From Gammaproteobacteria bacterium (GTDB lineage: Bacteria > Pseudomonadota > Gammaproteobacteria > Burkholderiales > Rhodocyclaceae): a DNA stretch of 64,000 bases. Location of the stretch: NCBI GenBank assembly GCA_029289235.1, contig JARFTZ010000007.1, positions 1-64,000 on the forward strand, written 5' to 3'. Shown here piece after piece: positions 26,791-40,755 of this stretch. Made by a program: the position numbers and the translations under genes. A model generated the notes under the pieces. The model searched no databases and had not been told where the DNA came from. It was given only the letters and a program-made list of their open reading frames with translations. Position 1 is the stretch's first letter, and every line of letters begins with the position of its first letter.

Positions 26791-27384
26791 TCAGTGCTGG
26801 CTGGTATGTTTTCCGTTGACGACCAGGAGCCGGTCGCACATGGCAATCGCCATCGCAGAAAGCAGGAAGGCGACATGGATGCCCGCCTGGGCGATGAGGA
26901 CTTTCTCGCTGTAGGCCTCGGCGTTGATGAAGGTCTTGAGCAGGTGGATCGAAGAAATGCCAATGATTGCGGTCGCCAGCTTGACCTTGAGAACGGACGC
27001 GTTGACATGCGACAACCACTCCGGCTGGTCCGGGTGCTGCTCCAGGTTCATGCGCGACACGAACGTTTCATAGCCGCCGACGATCACCATGATCAACAGG
27101 TTGGAAATCATGACCACGTCGATCAATCCCAGCACGACCAGCATGATCGTCGTCTCGGTCAGGCGCTCGGTTTGCGAACCGTAGCCAACGGCCTGCACGA
27201 TGTGTTCCAGAGCGTCCTGGTTACCGAGCGCCGCACCGACGAGATCGACCAGCTCGACCCAGAAATGGACGACATAGACGCACTGCGCGACGATCAGCCC
27301 GAGATAGAGCGGCAGCTGCAACCAGCGGCTCATGAAGATGAAGTTGGGCAAGGGACGGAGACGGGAAGACGGGGATTCGTTCAT
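26791..27384 (-). CDS. yqhA: YqhA family (UPF0114) inner-membrane protein
   Basis: A 197-residue protein with four hydrophobic segments. The region [26 protein letters not shown] is the hallmark of the UPF0114/YqhA family, whose role is not established. Length is close to the usual 165-200. Two hairpins without T-tracts (26746-26765 and 26773-26786) follow the gene. It diverges from the sensor kinase. Confidence 0.88.
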
Positions 27385-27646
27385 GAAGGGATCCGGGAGA
27401 AATGGGACAAAACCGGCAGTTGCAGCACACGGGAGCTACATAGACATTCCCACTACGGGAAGTTCCGTCCTGATTCAACACCTGCCTTTTTCAACCGTAA
27501 TGGCTATGCTGAGACAAGGTGGCGCAGCCAACGCCATGAGCTGGCTCACAATGCATCACAAAAGCAAGACTTCATGCCCGCGAACGCTCGTCTGCAGCCG
27601 GAACCGAACGATCACCCCCGGAAACCAGCCCACTCAGAAACACACC

Positions 27647-30600
27647 ATGAGAATCGAAACCGGAAGCCGCCTGCTCACCCTGCTGGTCGCACTTTTGTCG
27701 GCGTTCAGCATCGGCACGTACGTATTCGCCAATCGCACCGTGGAAGAGCTCAGGCGCAGTCAGCAAAAACATGTCGAGGTTTCTCAGGCCGTGTTCCTGT
27801 TCGGTCAGAGTGCCGAGATGCTGACCATGGCGGCACGCACCTATATCGCCACCAGTGACGAGTATTTCCGGACAACGTTCCATGCCCGACTGGAGGCTGG
27901 CTGGCCGGCCAACGTGATCGATCGGCTGCGCGAGCTGCTGGAAGGGCACCCGGACGAAATCACTTTGCTTGAATCGGCACGTGAAAACTCGGAGTTCCTT
28001 GTCGCCCTTGAGAAGAGCGCCATGCAGGCCGCCGAACGCGGCGACCGCGAGGCCGCCGTCGAGGCGATCCTGGGCCCGCAACATCGCGTGCGTGAAACCA
28101 TAACCACGGAACTTGTCACGCAGATTCTCCGCCAGCTTGAATCGACACAGCGGGAGGAAAACTCGCGCCTGACGGCGCAAAGCGACCTGGCAGGACGGAT
28201 TGCCTGGGTCACCATGGCGCTCAACGTGGCCGGCATGCTGGGCGTCCTGCTGGGTTTTTACCGGCACAAGGTCGTGCGCCCGCTGGTCAGCATCACCCGG
28301 CAAACGCGCTCGTTGCTGGCGGGCAGGCGCGACATCCATTTCGTCGGACCACAGACGGACAAGGAAGCGGAGGAGATCCTGGAACTGGCCAGAACGCTGG
28401 AAGACTACCAGCGCATTTCCGCCGAGCGCGACGCGCAACGGCAGCAACTGCACATCGCCAACGCCGAGCAGAAGGCGATCGTCGACTCCGCCACCTCCGG
28501 CATCGCGCTGATCAAGGACCGGATCATCGAAAGGGCGAACCGCCAGCTGCACACGATCACCGGTTGGTCGCCATGGGAACTCGTCGGTCAGCCCACGCAC
28601 GTCTGGTACACGGATGAAGCCGCGTGGCAGAACGACGAGAACACGCTGTACGAGCCCGTCTGGCGTGGCGAAACCAGTACGCGCGAAATGCAGATGAGGC
28701 GCCGCGACGGGAGCAGCTTCTGGGCACGGCTGACGGGCCGCGCCGTCGACGCCGACGACCGCTCGCGCGGCTCGGTGTGGATCATCGACGACATCACCGT
28801 CGAGCACGCGGCCATCGAGGAAATGCGCAAGGCACGGGCGCTGGCCGAGGAAGCGGCACGGATGAAATCCGACTTTCTCGCCAACATGAGCCACGAAATC
28901 CGCACGCCGATGAATGCGATCATCGGCACCGCCTACCTGGCGCTGAAGACCAACCCCTCCGCCCGCCAGCGCGACTACCTGAAGAAAATCCAGGCATCGA
29001 GCCAGATCCTGCTCGGCATCATCAACGACATTCTCGACCTGTCGAAGATCGAGGCCGGCAAGCTGGTCGTCGAACGCACCGGTTTCGAACTGCAGCAGGT
29101 CCTCGACAGCGTCACCAACCTGGTGGCCGAAAAAGCCGCCGGCAAGGGTCTCGAATTGATCGTCAACATCGCCAGCGACGTTCCCGCCGACCTTGTCGGC
29201 GACCCGCTGCGGCTCGGCCAGGTGCTCACCAATTACGTCAACAACGCGGTCAAGTTCACCGAACACGGCGAAATCGAGATCAGCGTTGCCGTCGATCACG
29301 CGAAAGGCAACGATCTGTTCCTGCGGTTTGCGGTGCGCGACACCGGCATCGGCCTCACCGACGAGCAGAAAAACCGCCTGTTCCAGAACTTCGAGCAGGC
29401 CGACACGTCGACCACGCGCAAGTACGGCGGCACCGGGCTGGGCCTGTCGATCGCCAAACAGCTGGCCGAACTGATGGGCGGTGCGGTAGGAGTCGACAGC
29501 GAATTCGGCAAGGGCAGCACGTTCTGGTTTACCGCCCGTCTGGGGCGCGGAAAAAGAAAGCGCAGCAAGCCGCTGCTCAACCCGGCGATGCGCGGTTGCC
29601 GCGTGCTGCTGGCCGACGACAGCGACACCGCCCGCGAGGTCATCGGCGAGATGCTGCGCAGCCTGACCTTCGATGTCACCGCGGTTGCCTCGGGCGATGC
29701 GGCGATCGCCGAAATCGCCCGGGGCGACGCGATCGGCGAGCGTTACGAGGTGGCTCTGCTCGATTGGCGGATGGCTGAACTGGACGGCATCGCCACGGCC
29801 CGAAAAATCCGCGCCCTGACTCTCGAAAAACCGCCCCGGCTGGTAATCATCAGCGCCTATGGCCGCGACGAACTGTTCCATGCCGCCGAGGCCGCCGGCA
29901 TCGAGAACGTCCTGATCAAGCCGCTCAGCCCGTCACTGCTGTTTGACACGATCGTCAATCAAGGCGCGACGGAGCACGAGGAGGCGACCGAGGAAAGTCC
30001 TACGGAATCCGAAATCGAAACCCGGCTGGCGTCGATCGCCGGCGCACGCGTCCTCCTCGTCGAAGACAACGACATGAACCAGCAGATGGCCAGCGAACTG
30101 CTCGGCAGCGTCGGTCTGAACGTCGAACTGGCCGAGAACGGCCGCATTGCGGTGGAAAAGGTTCAGGCGCAGGAGTTCGACGTCGTCCTGATGGACATGC
30201 AGATGCCGGAAATGGACGGCATCACCGCCACGCGGGAAATCCGCAAGCTGCCGCAGTACGCCGAGTTGCCGATCGTGGCCATGACCGCCAACGCCATGGA
30301 AGGCGACCGCGAGAAGTGCCTGGCCGCCGGGATGCAAGACCACGTTGCCAAGCCGATCGACCCCGACACGTTGTGGCGAGCCCTGCTCCGCTGGATCAAG
30401 CCCCGCGCCGAACTGCCTACGGGAACTCCAAGCACCTCGCGCCCGGACACGCGGGAAAATGCGGAATGGACGCCGCCGACGATCGTCGGCATCGACACCG
30501 CGCAAGGCCTCAAGCGGGCGGTCGGCAAAGGCTCGCTCTACCTCGCCATGCTGCGCAAGTTCCTCGACGGCCAGGCTGCGGTTCCCGAACAACTGAAAAG

Positions 30601-31060
30601 TGCGCTCGATGCCGACGACTGGTCGCTCGCCGAACGGCTGGCCCACACGCTCAAGGGGACCGCCGGGAACATTGGCGCCAGCGCCATCCAGGAAGCCGCC
30701 GCAAAGATGGAAGCGGCCATCGCCGCACACACCGACCGGGCAAAAATCGACGCCTTGCTCGCTGATCTCCATCGCCCGCTCGACGAAACCATTGCCGCGC
30801 TGCGCGCTGCGCTGCCGGCGGAAGCGTCTGTCAACGCTGCCGCAGCCGATCCCGCCGAGCTTCGCCAACAGGTCGCGCGTCTCGCCGAATTGCTGGCCGA
30901 CGATGACGCGGAAGCCAGCGATCTGCTGGTTGCACATGCAAACCTTTTCCAGGCAGCTTTTGGAAAAGACTACGCGTCGATCGCCGACGCCATCGCCCGT
31001 TTCGATTTCGAGAAGGCGCTGGCGGCGCTGAACGCTACCCAGGCCGGAAAGGAGGGCTGA
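27647..31060 (+). CDS. Hybrid sensor histidine kinase with PAS, two receiver domains and HPt
   Basis: A 1137-residue inner-membrane signalling protein. After an N-terminal helix (about 8-28) comes a helical extracytoplasmic sensor of some 155 residues, a second helix near 185-207 and a HAMP-like linker. A PAS domain (about 275-385) precedes HisKA with His416 in MSHEIRTPMN and the ATPase domain with DTGIGL and GTGLGLS boxes. Receiver 1 has LLDWRMAELDG, receiver 2 has LMDMQMPEMDG, and the HPt domain has His1000 in AHTLKG. The phosphorelay is therefore complete. I chose ATG 27647 because the signal-anchor helix starts just after it; upstream in-frame codons have no recognisable content. The output is probably the regulator four bases downstream. 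Confidence 0.9.
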   Translation: MRIETGSRLLTLLVALLSAFSIGTYVFANRTVEELRRSQQKHVEVSQAVFLFGQSAEMLTMAARTYIATSDEYFRTTFHARLEAGWPANVIDRLRELLEGHPDEITLLESARENSEFLVALEKSAMQAAERGDREAAVEAILGPQHRVRETITTELVTQILRQLESTQREENSRLTAQSDLAGRIAWVTMALNVAGMLGVLLGFYRHKVVRPLVSITRQTRSLLAGRRDIHFVGPQTDKEAEEILELARTLEDYQRISAERDAQRQQLHIANAEQKAIVDSATSGIALIKDRIIERANRQLHTITGWSPWELVGQPTHVWYTDEAAWQNDENTLYEPVWRGETSTREMQMRRRDGSSFWARLTGRAVDADDRSRGSVWIIDDITVEHAAIEEMRKARALAEEAARMKSDFLANMSHEIRTPMNAIIGTAYLALKTNPSARQRDYLKKIQASSQILLGIINDILDLSKIEAGKLVVERTGFELQQVLDSVTNLVAEKAAGKGLELIVNIASDVPADLVGDPLRLGQVLTNYVNNAVKFTEHGEIEISVAVDHAKGNDLFLRFAVRDTGIGLTDEQKNRLFQNFEQADTSTTRKYGGTGLGLSIAKQLAELMGGAVGVDSEFGKGSTFWFTARLGRGKRKRSKPLLNPAMRGCRVLLADDSDTAREVIGEMLRSLTFDVTAVASGDAAIAEIARGDAIGERYEVALLDWRMAELDGIATARKIRALTLEKPPRLVIISAYGRDELFHAAEAAGIENVLIKPLSPSLLFDTIVNQGATEHEEATEESPTESEIETRLASIAGARVLLVEDNDMNQQMASELLGSVGLNVELAENGRIAVEKVQAQEFDVVLMDMQMPEMDGITATREIRKLPQYAELPIVAMTANAMEGDREKCLAAGMQDHVAKPIDPDTLWRALLRWIKPRAELPTGTPSTSRPDTRENAEWTPPTIVGIDTAQGLKRAVGKGSLYLAMLRKFLDGQAAVPEQLKSALDADDWSLAERLAHTLKGTAGNIGASAIQEAAAKMEAAIAAHTDRAKIDALLADLHRPLDETIAALRAALPAEASVNAAAADPAELRQQVARLAELLADDDAEASDLLVAHANLFQAAFGKDYASIADAIARFDFEKALAALNATQAGKEG

Positions 31061-31063
31061 CCC

Positions 31064-32188
31064 ATGGACGAGCAGGAAACCCTGCCCCGGGCAACGATTC
31101 TGGTGGTGGACGACACGCCGGACAACCTGACGCTGATGAGCTCGCTGCTGCGCGACGACTACAAGGTCAAGGTCGCCAACAGCGGCGAGCGGGCGCTGCG
31201 CATCGCCCGCTCGGAAAACCCGCCGGACCTCGTCCTGCTCGATATCATGATGCCGGAGATGGACGGCTACCAGGTCATCGAGCAGTTGAAAGGCGACGCC
31301 GCGACCCGCGACATTCCGGTCATCTTCCTGACCGCCAAGGCCACCGTCGAAGACGAGAAGAAGGGCCTCGAACTCGGCGCGGTCGACTACATCACCAAGC
31401 CAATCAGCCCGCCGATCGTCCTGGCCCGCGTCAAGACACATCTCTCGCTGAAAGCTTCGGCCGACTTCCTGCGCGACCGCGCCGCCTTCCTCGAAGAAGA
31501 AGTCGCCAGGCGCACGCGCGAAGTCCGGGCGATCCAGGACGTCACCATCCTGGCCATGGCGTCGCTCGCCGAAACACGCGACAACGATACCGGCAACCAC
31601 ATCCGCCGCACTCAGCACTACGTCAAGGCACTGGCAGAACAACTGAAAACGCACCCGCGCTTCGCCGCCTTCCTGACCGAGGCCAACATCGCCCTGCTGT
31701 TCAAATCAGCACCGCTGCACGACATCGGCAAGGTCGGCATCCCCGACCGCATCCTGCTCAAGCCCGGCCACTTCGATGCGCAGGAATTCGAAATCATGAA
31801 GACTCACGCAGCGCTAGGCTGCAAGGCGATCGCCCACGCCGAGAAGGCGCTCGGCACGCCGGTGGAATTCCTGCGCATGGCCAAGGAGATCGCCTACTCG
31901 CACCAGGAAAAATGGGATGGCGGCGGCTACCCGGAAGGCCGCGCCGGCGATGCCATCCCGATCCCGGCCCGCCTGATGGCACTGGCGGACGTTTACGACG
32001 CGCTGATCAGCCGCCGGGTTTACAAGGAGGCGTTATCCCACGCAGAAGCGACGCGAATCATCACAGAGGGGCGTGGGAAGCATTTCGACCCGAATGTGGT
32101 CGATGCCTTTCTGGTCATCCAGGACGAATTTCAGCGTATTGCCGCGCGCTTCGCCGACGCGGAAGCAGGAACCGCCACGGCCGCTTGA
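31064..32188 (+). CDS. Response regulator with HD-GYP c-di-GMP phosphodiesterase domain
   Basis: A 374-residue cytosolic protein. The receiver domain has the acid pair Asp16-Asp17, phospho-acceptor Asp60 in LLDIMMPEMDG and a conserved Lys in YITKP. The HD-GYP output domain has APLHDIGKVGIPD and SHQEKWDGGGYPEG with the GYP triad, so it should hydrolyse cyclic di-GMP. Three bases separate it from the kinase gene, so phosphorylation by that kinase's HPt domain is the natural inference. The end effect would be a phosphorylation-set fall in c-di-GMP, affecting motility or biofilm. Confidence 0.92.
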   Translation: MDEQETLPRATILVVDDTPDNLTLMSSLLRDDYKVKVANSGERALRIARSENPPDLVLLDIMMPEMDGYQVIEQLKGDAATRDIPVIFLTAKATVEDEKKGLELGAVDYITKPISPPIVLARVKTHLSLKASADFLRDRAAFLEEEVARRTREVRAIQDVTILAMASLAETRDNDTGNHIRRTQHYVKALAEQLKTHPRFAAFLTEANIALLFKSAPLHDIGKVGIPDRILLKPGHFDAQEFEIMKTHAALGCKAIAHAEKALGTPVEFLRMAKEIAYSHQEKWDGGGYPEGRAGDAIPIPARLMALADVYDALISRRVYKEALSHAEATRIITEGRGKHFDPNVVDAFLVIQDEFQRIAARFADAEAGTATAA

Positions 32189-32197
32189 ACCAACTGT

Positions 32198-35100
32198 ATG
32201 CCCCGTTCCCGCCGCGCCGTAATATTCCGATCGCGTGCTGCGACCCGAGCGAATTACAATGCGGGGAAAAATGTCTTCGAGCAATCGACTTTTCCCTTGC
32301 ATACAGACCCGGATTCACCCCAAGAGGAACGCAAGCTCACCCCTCATTGCCTGAGCATCGATCTGGAGGTCGGGCGCAACAGCGCCGTTATCCATCAGCT
32401 GGCGGGATTGCGCGGCGATACCGATGACCGCCTGACGTATCCGCCCGGCGAACTGGCAAACGCGCTCGATGCGCTGGACTGCCTTGCTGACGACGCGGCG
32501 TTCCTGCTGGGGCACAACCTGATCGCCTTCGACCTGCCGCAGCTGCGCGCAGCCCAGCCGAATCTGCGTCTGCTCGCAAAACCGGTGATTGATACCTTGC
32601 GCCTCAACCCGCTGGCCTTCCCGAAGAATCCTTATCACCACCTCGTCAAGCATTACCAGGACGGCCAACTGCTGGCTGACCGCAAAAACGATCCGTTACT
32701 CGACGCGGAACTCGCCCTGCAGGTGTTCTGCGATCAGGAACTGGCGATGCGCCAGATGCAGCTGACGTCTCCCGACCTGCTGCTCGCATGGCATTGGCTG
32801 ACGACGCTCGACCAAAGCGTTTCCGGCCTCAACCGCTTCTTCATGATGGTGCGCGAAGCACCGCGCCCCAGCGAAGAGAACGCCAAGGCCGCCGTGCGCC
32901 GCCTGCTTGCCGGCAAGACCTGCGCGCCAGCCGCTGCCCGGATCGTCGACTCGGCGGCGCAGGTCGCCTGGCCACTGGCCTACGCGCTGGCGTGGCTGTC
33001 GGTCGCCGGCGGCAATTCGGTGATGCCGCCCTGGGTGCGCCACCAGTTCCCCGACGCCGGACGCCTGGTTCGCCAGCTGCGCGACGTCCCCTGCGTTGAT
33101 CCCGATTGCGCCTGGTGCTGCCGGGAACACGACTCGCGCAAACAACTGAAACAATGGTTCGGCGAAACCTACGCGTTCCGACCCGAGCCGATCGATAAAG
33201 AAACCGGGCTGCCGCTGCAGCAGGTCATCGTCGAGAGCGCGATGCGCGGCGAACACTGCCTCGGCATCCTGCCGACCGGCACCGGCAAGTCGCTGTGCTA
33301 TCAGGTACCGGCGCTGTCGCGCTTTGTCCGCACCGGCGCGCTGTCGGTGGTCATATCGCCGCTGGTGGCCCTGATGGAGGATCAGGTCAAGGGCTTGCGC
33401 GAACGCGGTGTCGACTGTTGCGCGGCGATCAACGGTCTGCTGTCGATGCCCGAGCGCGCCGCCGTGCTCGAACGCGTCCGGCTGGGCGACGTCGGCATCC
33501 TGCTCATCGCCCCTGAACAATTACGCAATCGCAGCGTGCGCAAGGTGCTGGCGCAGCGCGAAATCGGCGCCTGGGTGTTCGACGAAGCGCACTGCCTGTC
33601 GAAATGGGGGCAGGACTTCCGCCCGGACTACCGCTACGTCGCCCGCTTCATCCGCGAGTCGGCGGAGCACGCACCAAGCCGCGAACTGCCTGTGATCCAG
33701 TGCCTGACGGCAACCGCCAAGCCGGAAGTCGTCGCCGACATCGTCGACCATTTCCGCGAGAAGCTGGACATCGAGATGCGCCTGCTGGACGGCGGCTCCG
33801 AGCGCAAGAACCTGAAGTTCGACGTTATCCAGACCACCGCGGCGGAGAAATTCGAGCAGGTGGCCCGCCTGATCGAGCAAGACCTGCCGCCGGAAATCAG
33901 CGGAGGCGCCATTGCCTACTGCGCCACGCGCAAGCAGACCGAAGAACTCGCGCGTTTTCTCGGCGACAAGGGGCTGGCCGCCGCGCCTTATCACGCCAGG
34001 CTGCCGCCGGAGACCAAGAAGGAAACCCAGAAAGCCTTCATTAACGGCGCGCTGCGCGTCATCGCCGCGACCAACGCCTTCGGCATGGGCATCGACAAGC
34101 CTGACGTGCGCCTGGTCGTCCACGCCGACATCCCCGGCTCGCTCGAAAACTACCTGCAGGAGGCCGGCCGTGCCGGCCGCGACCGGGCCGCTGCCCGCTG
34201 CGTGCTGCTCTATGCCACCGACGATGTCGAACGCCAGCACGGCATGTCGGCCGCATCGCGGCTCTCGCGGCGAGACATCCAGAGCGTGCTGCGCGCACTG
34301 CGCCAGTTGAAGGGCAAGAAGAACCGCGGCGAAGCGCTGATCGCCACTTCCGGGGAAATTCTCGACGAAGACGAGGAAGGCAGCTTCAAACGCGACATCG
34401 CGACCGACGACACCCGCGTGCGTACCGCCATCGCTTGGCTGGAAGAAGCGGGGCTCGTCCGTCGCGAGGAAAACAGCGTGCAGATTTTTCCGTCGGCGCT
34501 GCGGATCAAGAGCCTCGACGAGGCCGACGCCCGGCTGGCGGCGCACGTATCCGATGCCGTCAGCCGCAAACGCTATCTGAACCTGCTGCAAATCCTGATG
34601 AGCGCCCCCGCCGACGAGGGCATCACTACCGACGAGCTGATGAACCAGACCGGCTTCACGGCAAGCGCGCTACGTGAAGCACTGCACGTCTTCGACCAGT
34701 TGGGTATTTCAAGCAACGATACCGGCATGACCGCGTTTGTCCATGTCGGCGTTGATCGTTCCTCGAAAAAGCGTTTCGAGGAGGCCTGCGCGCTGGAAAA
34801 GGCGCTGATCGCCCAACTGCGCGCAACGGCGCCGGACGTGATCGCCGGCGAAGGCTATCCGCTCGCCCTCCGTCTGCTAGCCCAGCAACTGAAGGATCAA
34901 GGCCATACCCAGGCGCTGCCGCAACGCTTGCGCCAGATCATCAACGGGCTGGCCGGCGACGGCCGGGACGACGAGCAAGGCGCGGGCAGCTTGCAACTTC
35001 GCCGCGCGAACGACCCGGACCACGTACACGTCACTCTGACGCGCAGCTGGGCGACAATCGAACGCATCGCCGAGCGCCGCCGCACAGCGGCCAGTCACCT

Positions 35101-37429
35101 GCTCGACCACTGGCTGTCCTGCCTGCCCGGCGGCACGCGCGGCTTGGACAAGCTGGCTGAGACGACACTCGGCAAACTCACCGCCAGCGCCGCCGGCGAT
35201 GGCCTGCTCGTCGCCGAAACGCCCGACCTGCGCAAGCTGGTCGAGCGCGCGCTGCTCTGGCTGCACGAACAGGAGGTTCTGCGCCTAAACAAGGGGCTGG
35301 CGATCTTCCGCACCGCCATGACGCTGCATCTGGAGGACAACTGGAAGCAGCAATTCGAGAAGAGCAACTATCAGCCCCTGCAGCTGCATTACGACGAACT
35401 GACCCGGCAGATTCACATCATGGCCGAGTACGCCGAACGCGGCATCCAGCGCATCGCCGATGCCACGCAACTCGCGGTCGATTACTTCCGGCTGTCGCGC
35501 GAGGCGTTCTGCCAGCGCTGGCTGCCGGGGCGCGAAAAGGAACTGACGCGGCAGACCACGCCGCAATCCTGGGAAACCATCGTCGAGACGCTGGCCAAGC
35601 CGAACCAGCGTGCCATCGTCGCCGACGACCGCGAGGACGCCAACGTGCTTGTGCTTGCCGGCCCCGGCTCCGGCAAGACACGCGTGCTCGTCCATCGCAT
35701 CGCCTACCTGATCCGCATGCGCCGTGAAAACCCGCGCGCGATCCTCGCGCTGGCTTACAACCGGCACGCCGCGCTGGAAATCCGTCGCCGCCTGCGCGCG
35801 CTGATCGGTGACGACGCGAACGGCGTCACGGTGATGACCTGCCATGCGCTGGCGATGCGGCTGGTCGGCGCCAGCTTCGCCGATCGCAGGGAACAGCGCG
35901 ACGACGATTTCGACGCCGTCCTCGCGGAAGCCACCGCCCTGCTCGAAGGACGCGGCTTGCCGCCGGAAGAGGCCGACACGCAGCGAGATCGCCTGCTCGC
36001 CGGCTTCCGCTGGATTCTCTTCGACGAATACCAGGACATCGGCCCCGGCCAGTACGCGCTGATTTCGGCGCTGGCCGGACGCAAGCGCACCGACGAGGAC
36101 GGCAAGCTGAACCTCTTCGCCGTTGGCGACGACGACCAGAACATCTACGCCTTCGCCGGCGCCTCCGTCGAATTCATCCGCCGCTTTGAAGCAGACTATC
36201 AGGCGCAGACCCGCTTCCTCGTCGAGAACTACCGTTCCACGGCCAACATCATCGACATCGCGAACGCGCTGATCGAGCCGGCCAGCGAGCGCATGAAACG
36301 CGAACACCCGATTCGCATCGATAACGCGCGCACCAAGTCACCGACAGGCGGCGAGTGGCAAAGCCGCGACAGCGTGGCGCAAGGGCGTGTGCAGATCCTG
36401 CCCGCTGGTCAAAACGCCGAACAGCAGGCGATGGCCGTCCTCACCGAACTCCAGCGATTGCAATCGTGCGGAATCGAGCTGGACCGGACGGCTGTCATTG
36501 CCCGCCAGTGGAAATTCCTCGACCCGCTGCGCGCCGCCTGCGAGAGCCTCGGTCTGCCGGTCAGCATGGCCGATGAAGACGCCCCGCCGCTGTGGCGCCT
36601 GCGCGAGACACAGTCCTTGCTGACTTTCGCCGAAGCACAGGGACCGCTCATCAAGGCTGGCACATTGCAAGCTTGGCTCACCGATCGCAACGATGGCGAA
36701 TGGGCAGACTGTCTGCGCGACGCCATCGCGGCGTTCACGGAGGAGACACAGGATGCGGAAGTCTCCGTGCCCTGGTTCCGTGACTGGCTGGCGGAATGGG
36801 GCCGTGCCAGCCGGCTGCGACAAACCGGCTTGCTGCTGCTGACCGCGCACCGGGCCAAGGGGTTGGAGTTCGACCACGTGATCGTGCTCGACGGTGAATG
36901 GCGACGGCAAAACGGCGAAGATGCGGACGCCGCGCGCCGCCTCTACTACGTGGCGATGACCCGCGCCCGGCAAACGCTCACGCTCGCCCGGATGGACGAC
37001 GGACATCCGCTGCTCGATGGCATGCGTGACAGTCCTGCGCTGCTGCGCCGCCCGCCGACGCAATGGCTGCCCCAAATGGCAGGGCTGAGACACCGCTACC
37101 TCCTTCCCTCCTTGAGGGAAATCGATCTTGGCTTCGCCGGCCGCGCAAGCGCTGACGATCCGCTGCACCGTCGCCTTGCCGCTCTGACGGTCGGCGACAC
37201 ACTGCAGTTCGAGGCATACGAAAGGGGTTATCGGCTATTGACCCTGGAAGGCCGCAGCATCGGCCGCCTCTCCAGCAAGTTTTTACCGCCGGCAGGGATG
37301 CGCTGCGTTGGGGCCAAGGTGCGCGCCGTCGTCGTCTGGCGACGGCGCGACACCCCGCCGGAATACCTGGATCGCTGCCGTTGCGCGCAGTGGGAGGTCG
37401 TCCTGCCGGAACTGGTTTTCGCCCCTTGA
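32198..37429 (+). CDS. DEDD exonuclease-RecQ helicase-UvrD helicase fusion protein
   Basis: A 1743-residue DNA repair or processing protein joining three enzymes. Residues about 50-180 look like a DnaQ-type 3'-5' exonuclease: Asp55-Leu-Glu57, GHNLIAFD with Asp112, Asp132 and Asp169; the usual His or Tyr before the last Asp is replaced (Asn164/Asp165). A Cys cluster follows (299, 304, 307, 308). RecQ comes next, with PTGTGKS near 358-365, DEAH in VFDEAHCLSKWGQD, and AGRAGRD in its second half. A third part from about 1140 is a UvrD/Rep helicase with AGPGSGKT, FDEYQDIG and VAMTRARQTL. The true start is uncertain: ATG 32198 has no ribosome site, and an in-frame TTG at 32297 would also keep every motif. 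Confidence 0.88.
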   Translation: MPRSRRAVIFRSRAATRANYNAGKNVFEQSTFPLHTDPDSPQEERKLTPHCLSIDLEVGRNSAVIHQLAGLRGDTDDRLTYPPGELANALDALDCLADDAAFLLGHNLIAFDLPQLRAAQPNLRLLAKPVIDTLRLNPLAFPKNPYHHLVKHYQDGQLLADRKNDPLLDAELALQVFCDQELAMRQMQLTSPDLLLAWHWLTTLDQSVSGLNRFFMMVREAPRPSEENAKAAVRRLLAGKTCAPAAARIVDSAAQVAWPLAYALAWLSVAGGNSVMPPWVRHQFPDAGRLVRQLRDVPCVDPDCAWCCREHDSRKQLKQWFGETYAFRPEPIDKETGLPLQQVIVESAMRGEHCLGILPTGTGKSLCYQVPALSRFVRTGALSVVISPLVALMEDQVKGLRERGVDCCAAINGLLSMPERAAVLERVRLGDVGILLIAPEQLRNRSVRKVLAQREIGAWVFDEAHCLSKWGQDFRPDYRYVARFIRESAEHAPSRELPVIQCLTATAKPEVVADIVDHFREKLDIEMRLLDGGSERKNLKFDVIQTTAAEKFEQVARLIEQDLPPEISGGAIAYCATRKQTEELARFLGDKGLAAAPYHARLPPETKKETQKAFINGALRVIAATNAFGMGIDKPDVRLVVHADIPGSLENYLQEAGRAGRDRAAARCVLLYATDDVERQHGMSAASRLSRRDIQSVLRALRQLKGKKNRGEALIATSGEILDEDEEGSFKRDIATDDTRVRTAIAWLEEAGLVRREENSVQIFPSALRIKSLDEADARLAAHVSDAVSRKRYLNLLQILMSAPADEGITTDELMNQTGFTASALREALHVFDQLGISSNDTGMTAFVHVGVDRSSKKRFEEACALEKALIAQLRATAPDVIAGEGYPLALRLLAQQLKDQGHTQALPQRLRQIINGLAGDGRDDEQGAGSLQLRRANDPDHVHVTLTRSWATIERIAERRRTAASHLLDHWLSCLPGGTRGLDKLAETTLGKLTASAAGDGLLVAETPDLRKLVERALLWLHEQEVLRLNKGLAIFRTAMTLHLEDNWKQQFEKSNYQPLQLHYDELTRQIHIMAEYAERGIQRIADATQLAVDYFRLSREAFCQRWLPGREKELTRQTTPQSWETIVETLAKPNQRAIVADDREDANVLVLAGPGSGKTRVLVHRIAYLIRMRRENPRAILALAYNRHAALEIRRRLRALIGDDANGVTVMTCHALAMRLVGASFADRREQRDDDFDAVLAEATALLEGRGLPPEEADTQRDRLLAGFRWILFDEYQDIGPGQYALISALAGRKRTDEDGKLNLFAVGDDDQNIYAFAGASVEFIRRFEADYQAQTRFLVENYRSTANIIDIANALIEPASERMKREHPIRIDNARTKSPTGGEWQSRDSVAQGRVQILPAGQNAEQQAMAVLTELQRLQSCGIELDRTAVIARQWKFLDPLRAACESLGLPVSMADEDAPPLWRLRETQSLLTFAEAQGPLIKAGTLQAWLTDRNDGEWADCLRDAIAAFTEETQDAEVSVPWFRDWLAEWGRASRLRQTGLLLLTAHRAKGLEFDHVIVLDGEWRRQNGEDADAARRLYYVAMTRARQTLTLARMDDGHPLLDGMRDSPALLRRPPTQWLPQMAGLRHRYLLPSLREIDLGFAGRASADDPLHRRLAALTVGDTLQFEAYERGYRLLTLEGRSIGRLSSKFLPPAGMRCVGAKVRAVVVWRRRDTPPEYLDRCRCAQWEVVLPELVFAP

Positions 37430-37495: not shown

Positions 37496-37792
37496 TCACT
37501 CCTGCCCGAAACCCGCCTCACGCTGGGCTCGGATCGCCAGAACAAAGACTGTATCGATCTCGGCAACGTAGCGGTACAGCGCCACATACCCGTGCGAGCG
37601 CCGACCAATCACCAATTCACGTTTTCCGCTCTCGGCAGGACGGCCGATCAGAGGGTTGGTTTCGAGCACGCCGATGGCTGCGACGATCTCGTGTATCCGC
37701 GCCACGGGGTTCTCGACCTGATACTGCTCGAGGTGATCGAGAATCCGGTCGAAATCCTCCCCAACCTCGGGCGCCAGCTCGATGCGCGACAC
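37496..37792 (-). CDS. ParE/RelE-superfamily toxin
   Basis: A 98-residue toxin of a type II toxin-antitoxin pair. The C-terminal strands YVALYRYVAEIDTVFVLAIRAQREAG match ParE, which poisons DNA gyrase, better than RelE, which cuts mRNA. The start codon is GTG, one base after the antitoxin stop, so the two are translationally coupled. Target assignment is inference. Confidence 0.85.
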   Translation of the reverse strand: MSRIELAPEVGEDFDRILDHLEQYQVENPVARIHEIVAAIGVLETNPLIGRPAESGKRELVIGRRSHGYVALYRYVAEIDTVFVLAIRAQREAGFGQE

Positions 37793-37793
37793 G

Positions 37794-38078
37794 CTACTTC
37801 GCCAGCTTGCGCGCCGCCGGACGCTTCACCGCCTTGCCGACCACGCGCCCCTCCAGGTAACTGCGCATCTCGCTCCACGGAATCGTCTTGCCGGTTTCCA
37901 CGATGCGTGCGTAACGCTCTTCGGCCTCGGCAAGGAACTCGGCTCGACGCTCGGCCTGTTCAGCCTTTTCGGCAATCGCCTCGAGGATGAAGTTGTGCGC
38001 GGTCGTGCCGGCACGCCCAGCGGCTGCCGAAACACGGGCCTTCAGGTCATCGGGAATACGGATGGTCGTGGTGCTCAT
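37794..38078 (-). CDS. Ribbon-helix-helix antitoxin of the ParE-type pair
   Basis: A 94-residue protein beginning MSTTTIRIPDDLKARVSAAA, the DNA-binding ribbon-helix-helix motif (TTIRIP strand and two helices), with a charged C-terminal half that should wrap the toxin. The start at 38078 is supported by GGAG eight bases upstream. Such antitoxins normally repress their own promoter, which would lie in the 97 bases between this gene and clpB. Confidence 0.85.
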   Translation of the reverse strand: MSTTTIRIPDDLKARVSAAAGRAGTTAHNFILEAIAEKAEQAERRAEFLAEAEERYARIVETGKTIPWSEMRSYLEGRVVGKAVKRPAARKLAK

Positions 38079-38175
38079 GAAAAGCTCCGGAGCGGATTCA
38101 GTACGCAACGAATGTAGCACACATGTGGCACAAAAGTGCGATCAGGAAGGCGGAGCGGACACACAAGTCACTCGC

Positions 38176-40755
<2,580 letters not shown>

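Follow-up and report, generated by a model that had tools for sequence, protein, structure and literature searches.

A mobile protein family uniting a DEDD exonuclease-like domain with RecQ and UvrD helicase motors in one chain

Proteins that join an exonuclease to a RecQ helicase are known from the WRN type. WRN itself has a DEDDy exonuclease, carries RQC and HRDC domains and has no UvrD motor. AdnAB, AddAB and RecBCD are multi-subunit enzymes with UvrD-class motors and a RecB-family nuclease, and AdnAB has two UvrD-like motors. We take WRN and AdnAB to be among the nearest relatives, in design, of the protein reported here. The nearest in design among described proteins are the DinG proteins that bear an exonuclease. 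In the available text of PMC11981726, ExoDinG has an XPD-like SF2 motor and a DEDDh site, and pExoDinG is a DinG-like family with a degenerate exonuclease domain that misses two of the acids too. A preprint on YprA helicases deals, in its available text, with helicase-exonuclease pairs in defence and repair and not with a fusion of exonuclease, RecQ and UvrD (PMC12458937). We found no description of a RecQ-UvrD or exonuclease-RecQ-UvrD protein in the open-access literature, and an earlier one may exist in subscription papers, which lie largely outside this scope. For a Desulfonema paper with two RecQ genes (PMC6390638), a tie to the fusion family was not established from its available text.

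The window analysed here is a stretch of 64,000 nucleotides from a gammaproteobacterial genome (contig JARFTZ010000007.1). Positions 32198 to 37429 of its forward strand form a single open reading frame of 1743 codons, and its product of 1743 amino acids unites an exonuclease-like domain of the DEDD class with a RecQ and a UvrD motor in one polypeptide. The exonuclease-like domain, of DnaQ type, lies at the N terminus; the RecQ core, a linker, the UvrD core and a C-terminal region follow it in this order, and both cores are complete. In terms of Pfam families, DEAD (residues 339-513), Helicase_C (556-662), UvrD-helicase (from 1135) and UvrD_C (to 1597) each exceed their cut-off. A sequence-only reading of this DNA had proposed the three-part architecture in one frame, with two complete helicase motors (RecQ with DEAH, UvrD with DEYQD). 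Both proposals agree with our results: the frame has exactly these limits, Pfam recognises the two motors, whose residues are kept, and the exonuclease is recognised by profile. The true start of the gene is uncertain, since ATG at 32198 and TTG at 32297 are the sole in-frame ATG, GTG or TTG within the first 60 codons and residues 1-50 show low conservation among homologues.

Residue conservation was counted over 60 distinct proteins, none shorter than 1400 amino acids and the window protein among them. Left out of the alignments were L009 (its protein is identical to that of L025), L018 (cut, 1313 amino acids), contig-cut fragments and the copy from Candidatus Dactylopiibacterium carminicum (L026). 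In this last genome the fusion frame is broken, with a first open frame of 413 amino acids, and an AbiEi gene adjoins it.

The exonuclease-like domain (32333-32767, forward strand; residues about 46-190) had been read from a DxE / GHN-FD / D / D pattern, which in the protein corresponds to D55xE57, G105-H106-N107...D112, D132-T133-L134 and D169. Pfam returned no family for the N-terminal 344 residues of the window protein alone, and among 34 homologous N-terminal regions RNase_T was found in one, at E=0.092. With single-sequence Pfam giving no match there, assignment of the domain needs profile methods. A family profile of the 34 sequences, searched against the PDB, had the DinG exonuclease chain as best match (E=4.1e-5), then exodeoxyribonuclease III (9.4e-5), T7 DNA polymerase (0.012) and PolC (0.068); the next matches were unrelated amyloid-protein chains (E=0.17). 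In an hhalign comparison with a reference profile built from 26 DnaQ/RNase T-type domains, the N-terminal profile reached a probability of 96.2% (E=2.1e-9), and the two align motif on motif. As a specificity comparison, the same reference profile gave 0.5% against the linker profile and 0.1% against the C-terminal profile. The domain-wise search that had been suggested thus matches the N-terminal part to DnaQ-like exonucleases, as had been claimed.

The metal-binding acids D55, E57 and D112 are present in all 60 proteins and D169 in 59. Given that the N-terminal motifs are kept across 60 distinct proteins, chance is no reasonable explanation for them. Residue 164 stands where DEDDh enzymes carry their general-base His in the alignment; it is Asn in 58 proteins, Ser in one and Lys in one; the aligned position is His in 26/26 reference domains. 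The motif pattern is real, and the fifth catalytic residue is Asn164, not the His or Tyr that defines the DEDDh and DEDDy subgroups. Profile similarity to the fold and the four acids D, E, D, D are both found, and on its sequence the domain is assigned to the DEDD superfamily, in neither of these subgroups. With Asn in place of the general-base His, the domain may have little or no exonuclease activity. Lys151 is invariant (60/60). One virus-labelled copy (L080) is the sole protein of the 60 without D169 (it has Cys there) and carries the Lys at 164; its exonuclease may be degenerate, or the alignment may be locally wrong.

As in WRN-type proteins, an exonuclease of the DnaQ superfamily precedes the RecQ core of the fusion, whose fifth residue, however, is Asn; no RQC or HRDC domain was detected and a UvrD motor follows RecQ. 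ExoDinG and B. subtilis DinG, the source of the best PDB match, likewise have an N-terminal DEDD exonuclease joined to an SF2 helicase, but ExoDinG is without a second motor. With AdnAB, AddAB and RecBCD the fusion has in common the principle of coupling a UvrD-class motor to a nuclease, but it is one chain with a DEDD nuclease, one RecQ motor and one UvrD motor.

The RecQ core (33170-34267, forward strand; residues about 325-690) belongs to SF2 and has its Walker A lysine at K364, DEAH at 462-465, the aromatic loop with W470 and F474, and motif VI with R658 and R661. Residues K364, D462, E463, H465, W470, F474, R658 and R661 are each found in 60/60 proteins. The protein has both the SF2 motor motifs and the aromatic-rich loop by which the RecQ family is recognised. 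RQC, RecQ zinc-binding and HRDC domains are absent among the Pfam hits of the window protein up to E=10. In NCBIfam, the fusion passes recQ_fam (289 bits, cut-off 219.8) and misses the cut-offs of the equivalogs RecQ, UvrD, PcrA, Rep and DpdF. It shares the core motifs of canonical bacterial RecQ, but at 332 bits it is far below the equivalog cut-off of 640.

The UvrD-type core (35600-36997, forward strand; residues about 1135-1600) belongs to SF1, with Walker A at 1154-1161, DEYQD at 1276-1280, Q1314, R1346, E1557 and R1581. Each of K1160, D1276, E1277, Q1314 and R1346 is present in 60/60 proteins; E1557 and R1581 are present in 59 each, the remaining row being a gap. PF00580 and PF13361 are above their cut-offs, and the motor motifs of the UvrD/Rep group (SF1A) are complete. 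This motif set is shared with UvrD, PcrA and Rep, whereas the fusion reaches 173 bits against a DNA helicase II cut-off of 965, and its UvrD motor sits behind RecQ. Both motors would have the 3'-5' polarity of their families. The best PADLOC matches, DpdF, PsyrT/RqlH and GajB, have RecQ-like or UvrD-like motors of defence or toxin-antitoxin systems, but the match is limited to the motor parts and their partner genes are not conserved beside the fusion; for DpdF, the score in NCBIfam is 198 bits against a cut-off of 550. The window genome also encodes a separate RecQ and separate UvrD/Rep-type genes, by which the housekeeping roles are already covered.

Between the exonuclease and RecQ parts lies a set of four cysteines, C242, C299, C304 and C307 (32921-33118, forward strand), each found in 55-56 of the 60 proteins and together a probable zinc site. 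Plasmid copies from cyanobacteria, Aliarcobacter and Deinococcus (L054-L058) are without the set present in other copies. The linker (34250-35587, forward strand; residues about 685-1130) is family-specific, and its profile search gave no convincing match, with weak winged-helix-like ones at best (E=0.016). Finally, the C-terminal domain (36989-37426, forward strand; residues 1598-1743) gave nothing convincing in Pfam or in a profile search of the PDB; a likeness to HIRAN is an impression at most.

In the window, a response regulator with an HD domain (31064-32188, forward strand) ends 9 bases 5' of the fusion frame. It is the second gene of a stretch at 27332-32188 on the same strand, where a large hybrid histidine kinase (PAS, two receiver and Hpt domains) comes before it. 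No homologue of the regulator occurs among the neighbours of 30 other fusion loci, and the clpB regions of relatives are without the kinase/response-regulator pair except for distant look-alikes. A link between the fusion and this pair was rejected, as the genes were not found beside other fusion copies. Directly after the fusion gene, on the opposite strand, are genes for a ParE-like toxin and a TacA1/RelB-like antitoxin (37496-38120, reverse strand), followed by a ClpB-like ATPase gene (38176-40755, reverse strand). Among 14 other clpB regions in the genus, the fusion is alongside in two and absent in 12, two of those 12 being short. No recognised defence system was found near the window copy, only the ParE/TacA1-like pair and clpB.

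In terms of distribution, the sequence-only reading had asked for the fusion's occurrence to be mapped across genomes, and it is sporadic. We found the gene in 8 of 27 other genomes of the same genus (E<=1e-100; some genomes incomplete), in 8/370 genomes of a class sample and in 16/397 of a phylum sample, with its own genome counted in the last two. All 16 matches of the phylum sample begin at position 2-12 of the 1701 model positions, so the exonuclease part travels with the motors. At least 80% of the query is carried at one place by 21 of 72,556 plasmid records, and the carriers span Alpha- and Gammaproteobacteria, Bacteroides, cyanobacteria and others. None of the 96 GenBank phage records with any match carries 80% of it. 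Two scans of virus-labelled contigs added 11 further long copies to the analysis. Among the matches listed for 111 neighbour genes on 11 virus-labelled contigs are six to integrase, up to three to ParB-like families and one to a major head protein, and single neighbour genes match head or tail proteins. With integrase and head or tail matches beside them, some copies sit in integrating elements or prophages. Metagenome bins labelled Desulfobulbus and FCPU426 (L023, L034) are possible binning errors and were excluded as evidence.

The fusion gene is accessory and patchy and moves horizontally between lineages. Two genomes of the same genus, G009 and G010, are alike in their identity to the window genome for ClpB (94% and 92%) and for the separate RecQ (62% and 63%), yet their fusions are 84% and 44% identical to that of the window. 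A quick maximum-likelihood tree places copies from the genus in three separate positions, one of them with the copy of an Allochromatium plasmid. Both observations indicate horizontal transfer. Furthermore, identity to the window fusion is 76% for the copy from a Comamonadaceae bin and 71% and 69% for those from two Lysobacterales bins.

As for neighbours in other genomes, there is no conserved partner gene: the commonest neighbour family within 7.5 kb occurs in 3 of 31 loci, the window included. We surveyed with PADLOC (E<=1e-30) the 149 nearest genes of 30 loci, up to three per side and each of at least 100 amino acids; L025 and short fragments were omitted, and genes were called by a simple script, not by a trained gene finder. 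The neighbours matched 92 families in the part with 71 genes and 33 in the part with 78, whereas for 148 random genes the number was 15, each family with a single member (RtcR, PD-T4-6 and mad6 among them). These controls cover 17 of the 20 genomes used, as regions were missing for the other three, and one of 149 was dropped. PADLOC families are redundant, so individual genes were placed on loci instead. Ten of 20 neighbours scanned singly matched PADLOC, and another five could be assigned to loci from their coordinates, giving 15 genes. They put a defence-type gene within three genes of the fusion in at least 11/30 loci, which is a lower bound. Two of these 11 loci are doubtful, one with a GajB-like helicase (L198) and one with a weak MkoA match (L205), both of which may be ordinary helicases; at least 9/30 are left without them. 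Beside these two, the genes placed are Lamassu LmuA/LmuB with DrmD, type I restriction-modification (three genes), type IV restriction, a type III methyltransferase, PDC-M09B, PtuA, Cas3f and two AbiEi. In 19 loci no defence-type neighbour was placed, although not every neighbour was assigned.

PADLOC is also noisy, as ClpB matches PDC-M37B, a generic match. The excess may mean merely an accessory island, because the controls are random chromosomal genes and not accessory ones. Of 14 plasmid regions opened, 12 were annotated; a type I restriction-modification operon is about 1 kb away from one of the plasmid copies, and type I-D cas genes are at a distance of about 4 kb from another. As to the suggested clustering in defence islands, the survey gives an excess over random genes elsewhere, and the window copy itself lies outside any defence island.

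We favour, at about an even chance, a stand-alone, horizontally moving helicase-nuclease that would act on foreign or abnormal DNA. We prefer it to an accessory repair enzyme and to a helper of mobile elements because all motor parts and acids are kept and the gene is dispensable in most relatives, mobile and without a fixed partner. Driven by ATP and of 3'-5' polarity by family, the two motors would open up a DNA substrate, starting perhaps at a branch or at a free 3' end, and the exposed strand with the 3' end would be trimmed by the exonuclease domain. Invading or aberrantly replicating DNA would in this way be unwound and degraded. A narrower form, which we put forward tentatively, is a single-gene anti-phage or anti-plasmid system. 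It would be a one-chain counterpart of the multi-subunit helicase-nucleases, with Asn as the general base of its nuclease ('DEDDn') and possibly another catalytic residue, for example Lys151. Overlapping alike with the readings as a helicase-nuclease, a repair enzyme and an element helper is the view, unlikely to us, that the His-to-Asn change has left the exonuclease domain as a non-catalytic strand-binding domain and the protein as a double-motor DNA remodeller only. Asn at the general-base position in 58/60 proteins fits this view, and the degenerate exonuclease of pExoDinG is a precedent in the available text of PMC11981726; however, pExoDinG is described there as without two of the acids, whereas the fusions keep the four in 60, 60, 60 and 59 of 60. 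If the domain were purely structural, such acids should have been lost in some lineages.

All domains are of repair type by Pfam, related combinations such as exonuclease-DinG are known (PMC11981726, available text), and the window copy adjoins general genes and no defence systems. These points suit an accessory enzyme of repair or recombination for stalled forks or for branched or cross-linked DNA, which might be likened to WRN in animals or to the exonuclease-bearing DinG in Bacillus and would be patchy as dispensable repair genes are. We rate it as rather unlikely, since the gene's distribution is patchy, with transfer across classes and plasmids, defence-type neighbours are in excess elsewhere, and its own genome has the separate helicase genes. 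Homologues known as housekeeping repair proteins, which the sequence-only reading had said would count against it, were not found in the open-access literature. The copies on plasmids and virus-labelled contigs, with integrase, ParB-like and major head proteins among the matches listed for their neighbours, would suit an element-borne helper or counter-defence enzyme, with which plasmids, integrative elements or prophages would process their own DNA (entry, replication, transfer) or destroy rivals. This appears quite improbable to us, as the fusion is also found on chromosomes with no recognised element genes nearby, the window being an example, no matching GenBank phage record holds 80% of it, and no conserved element gene lies alongside.

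The family is a distinct mobile architecture that is concealed by the database label "RecQ family ATP-dependent DNA helicase". If it is a one-protein defence system, it would show RecQ and UvrD motors cooperating with a nuclease in one chain. Lastly, the consistent change from His to Asn would test what DEDD exonucleases require for catalysis.
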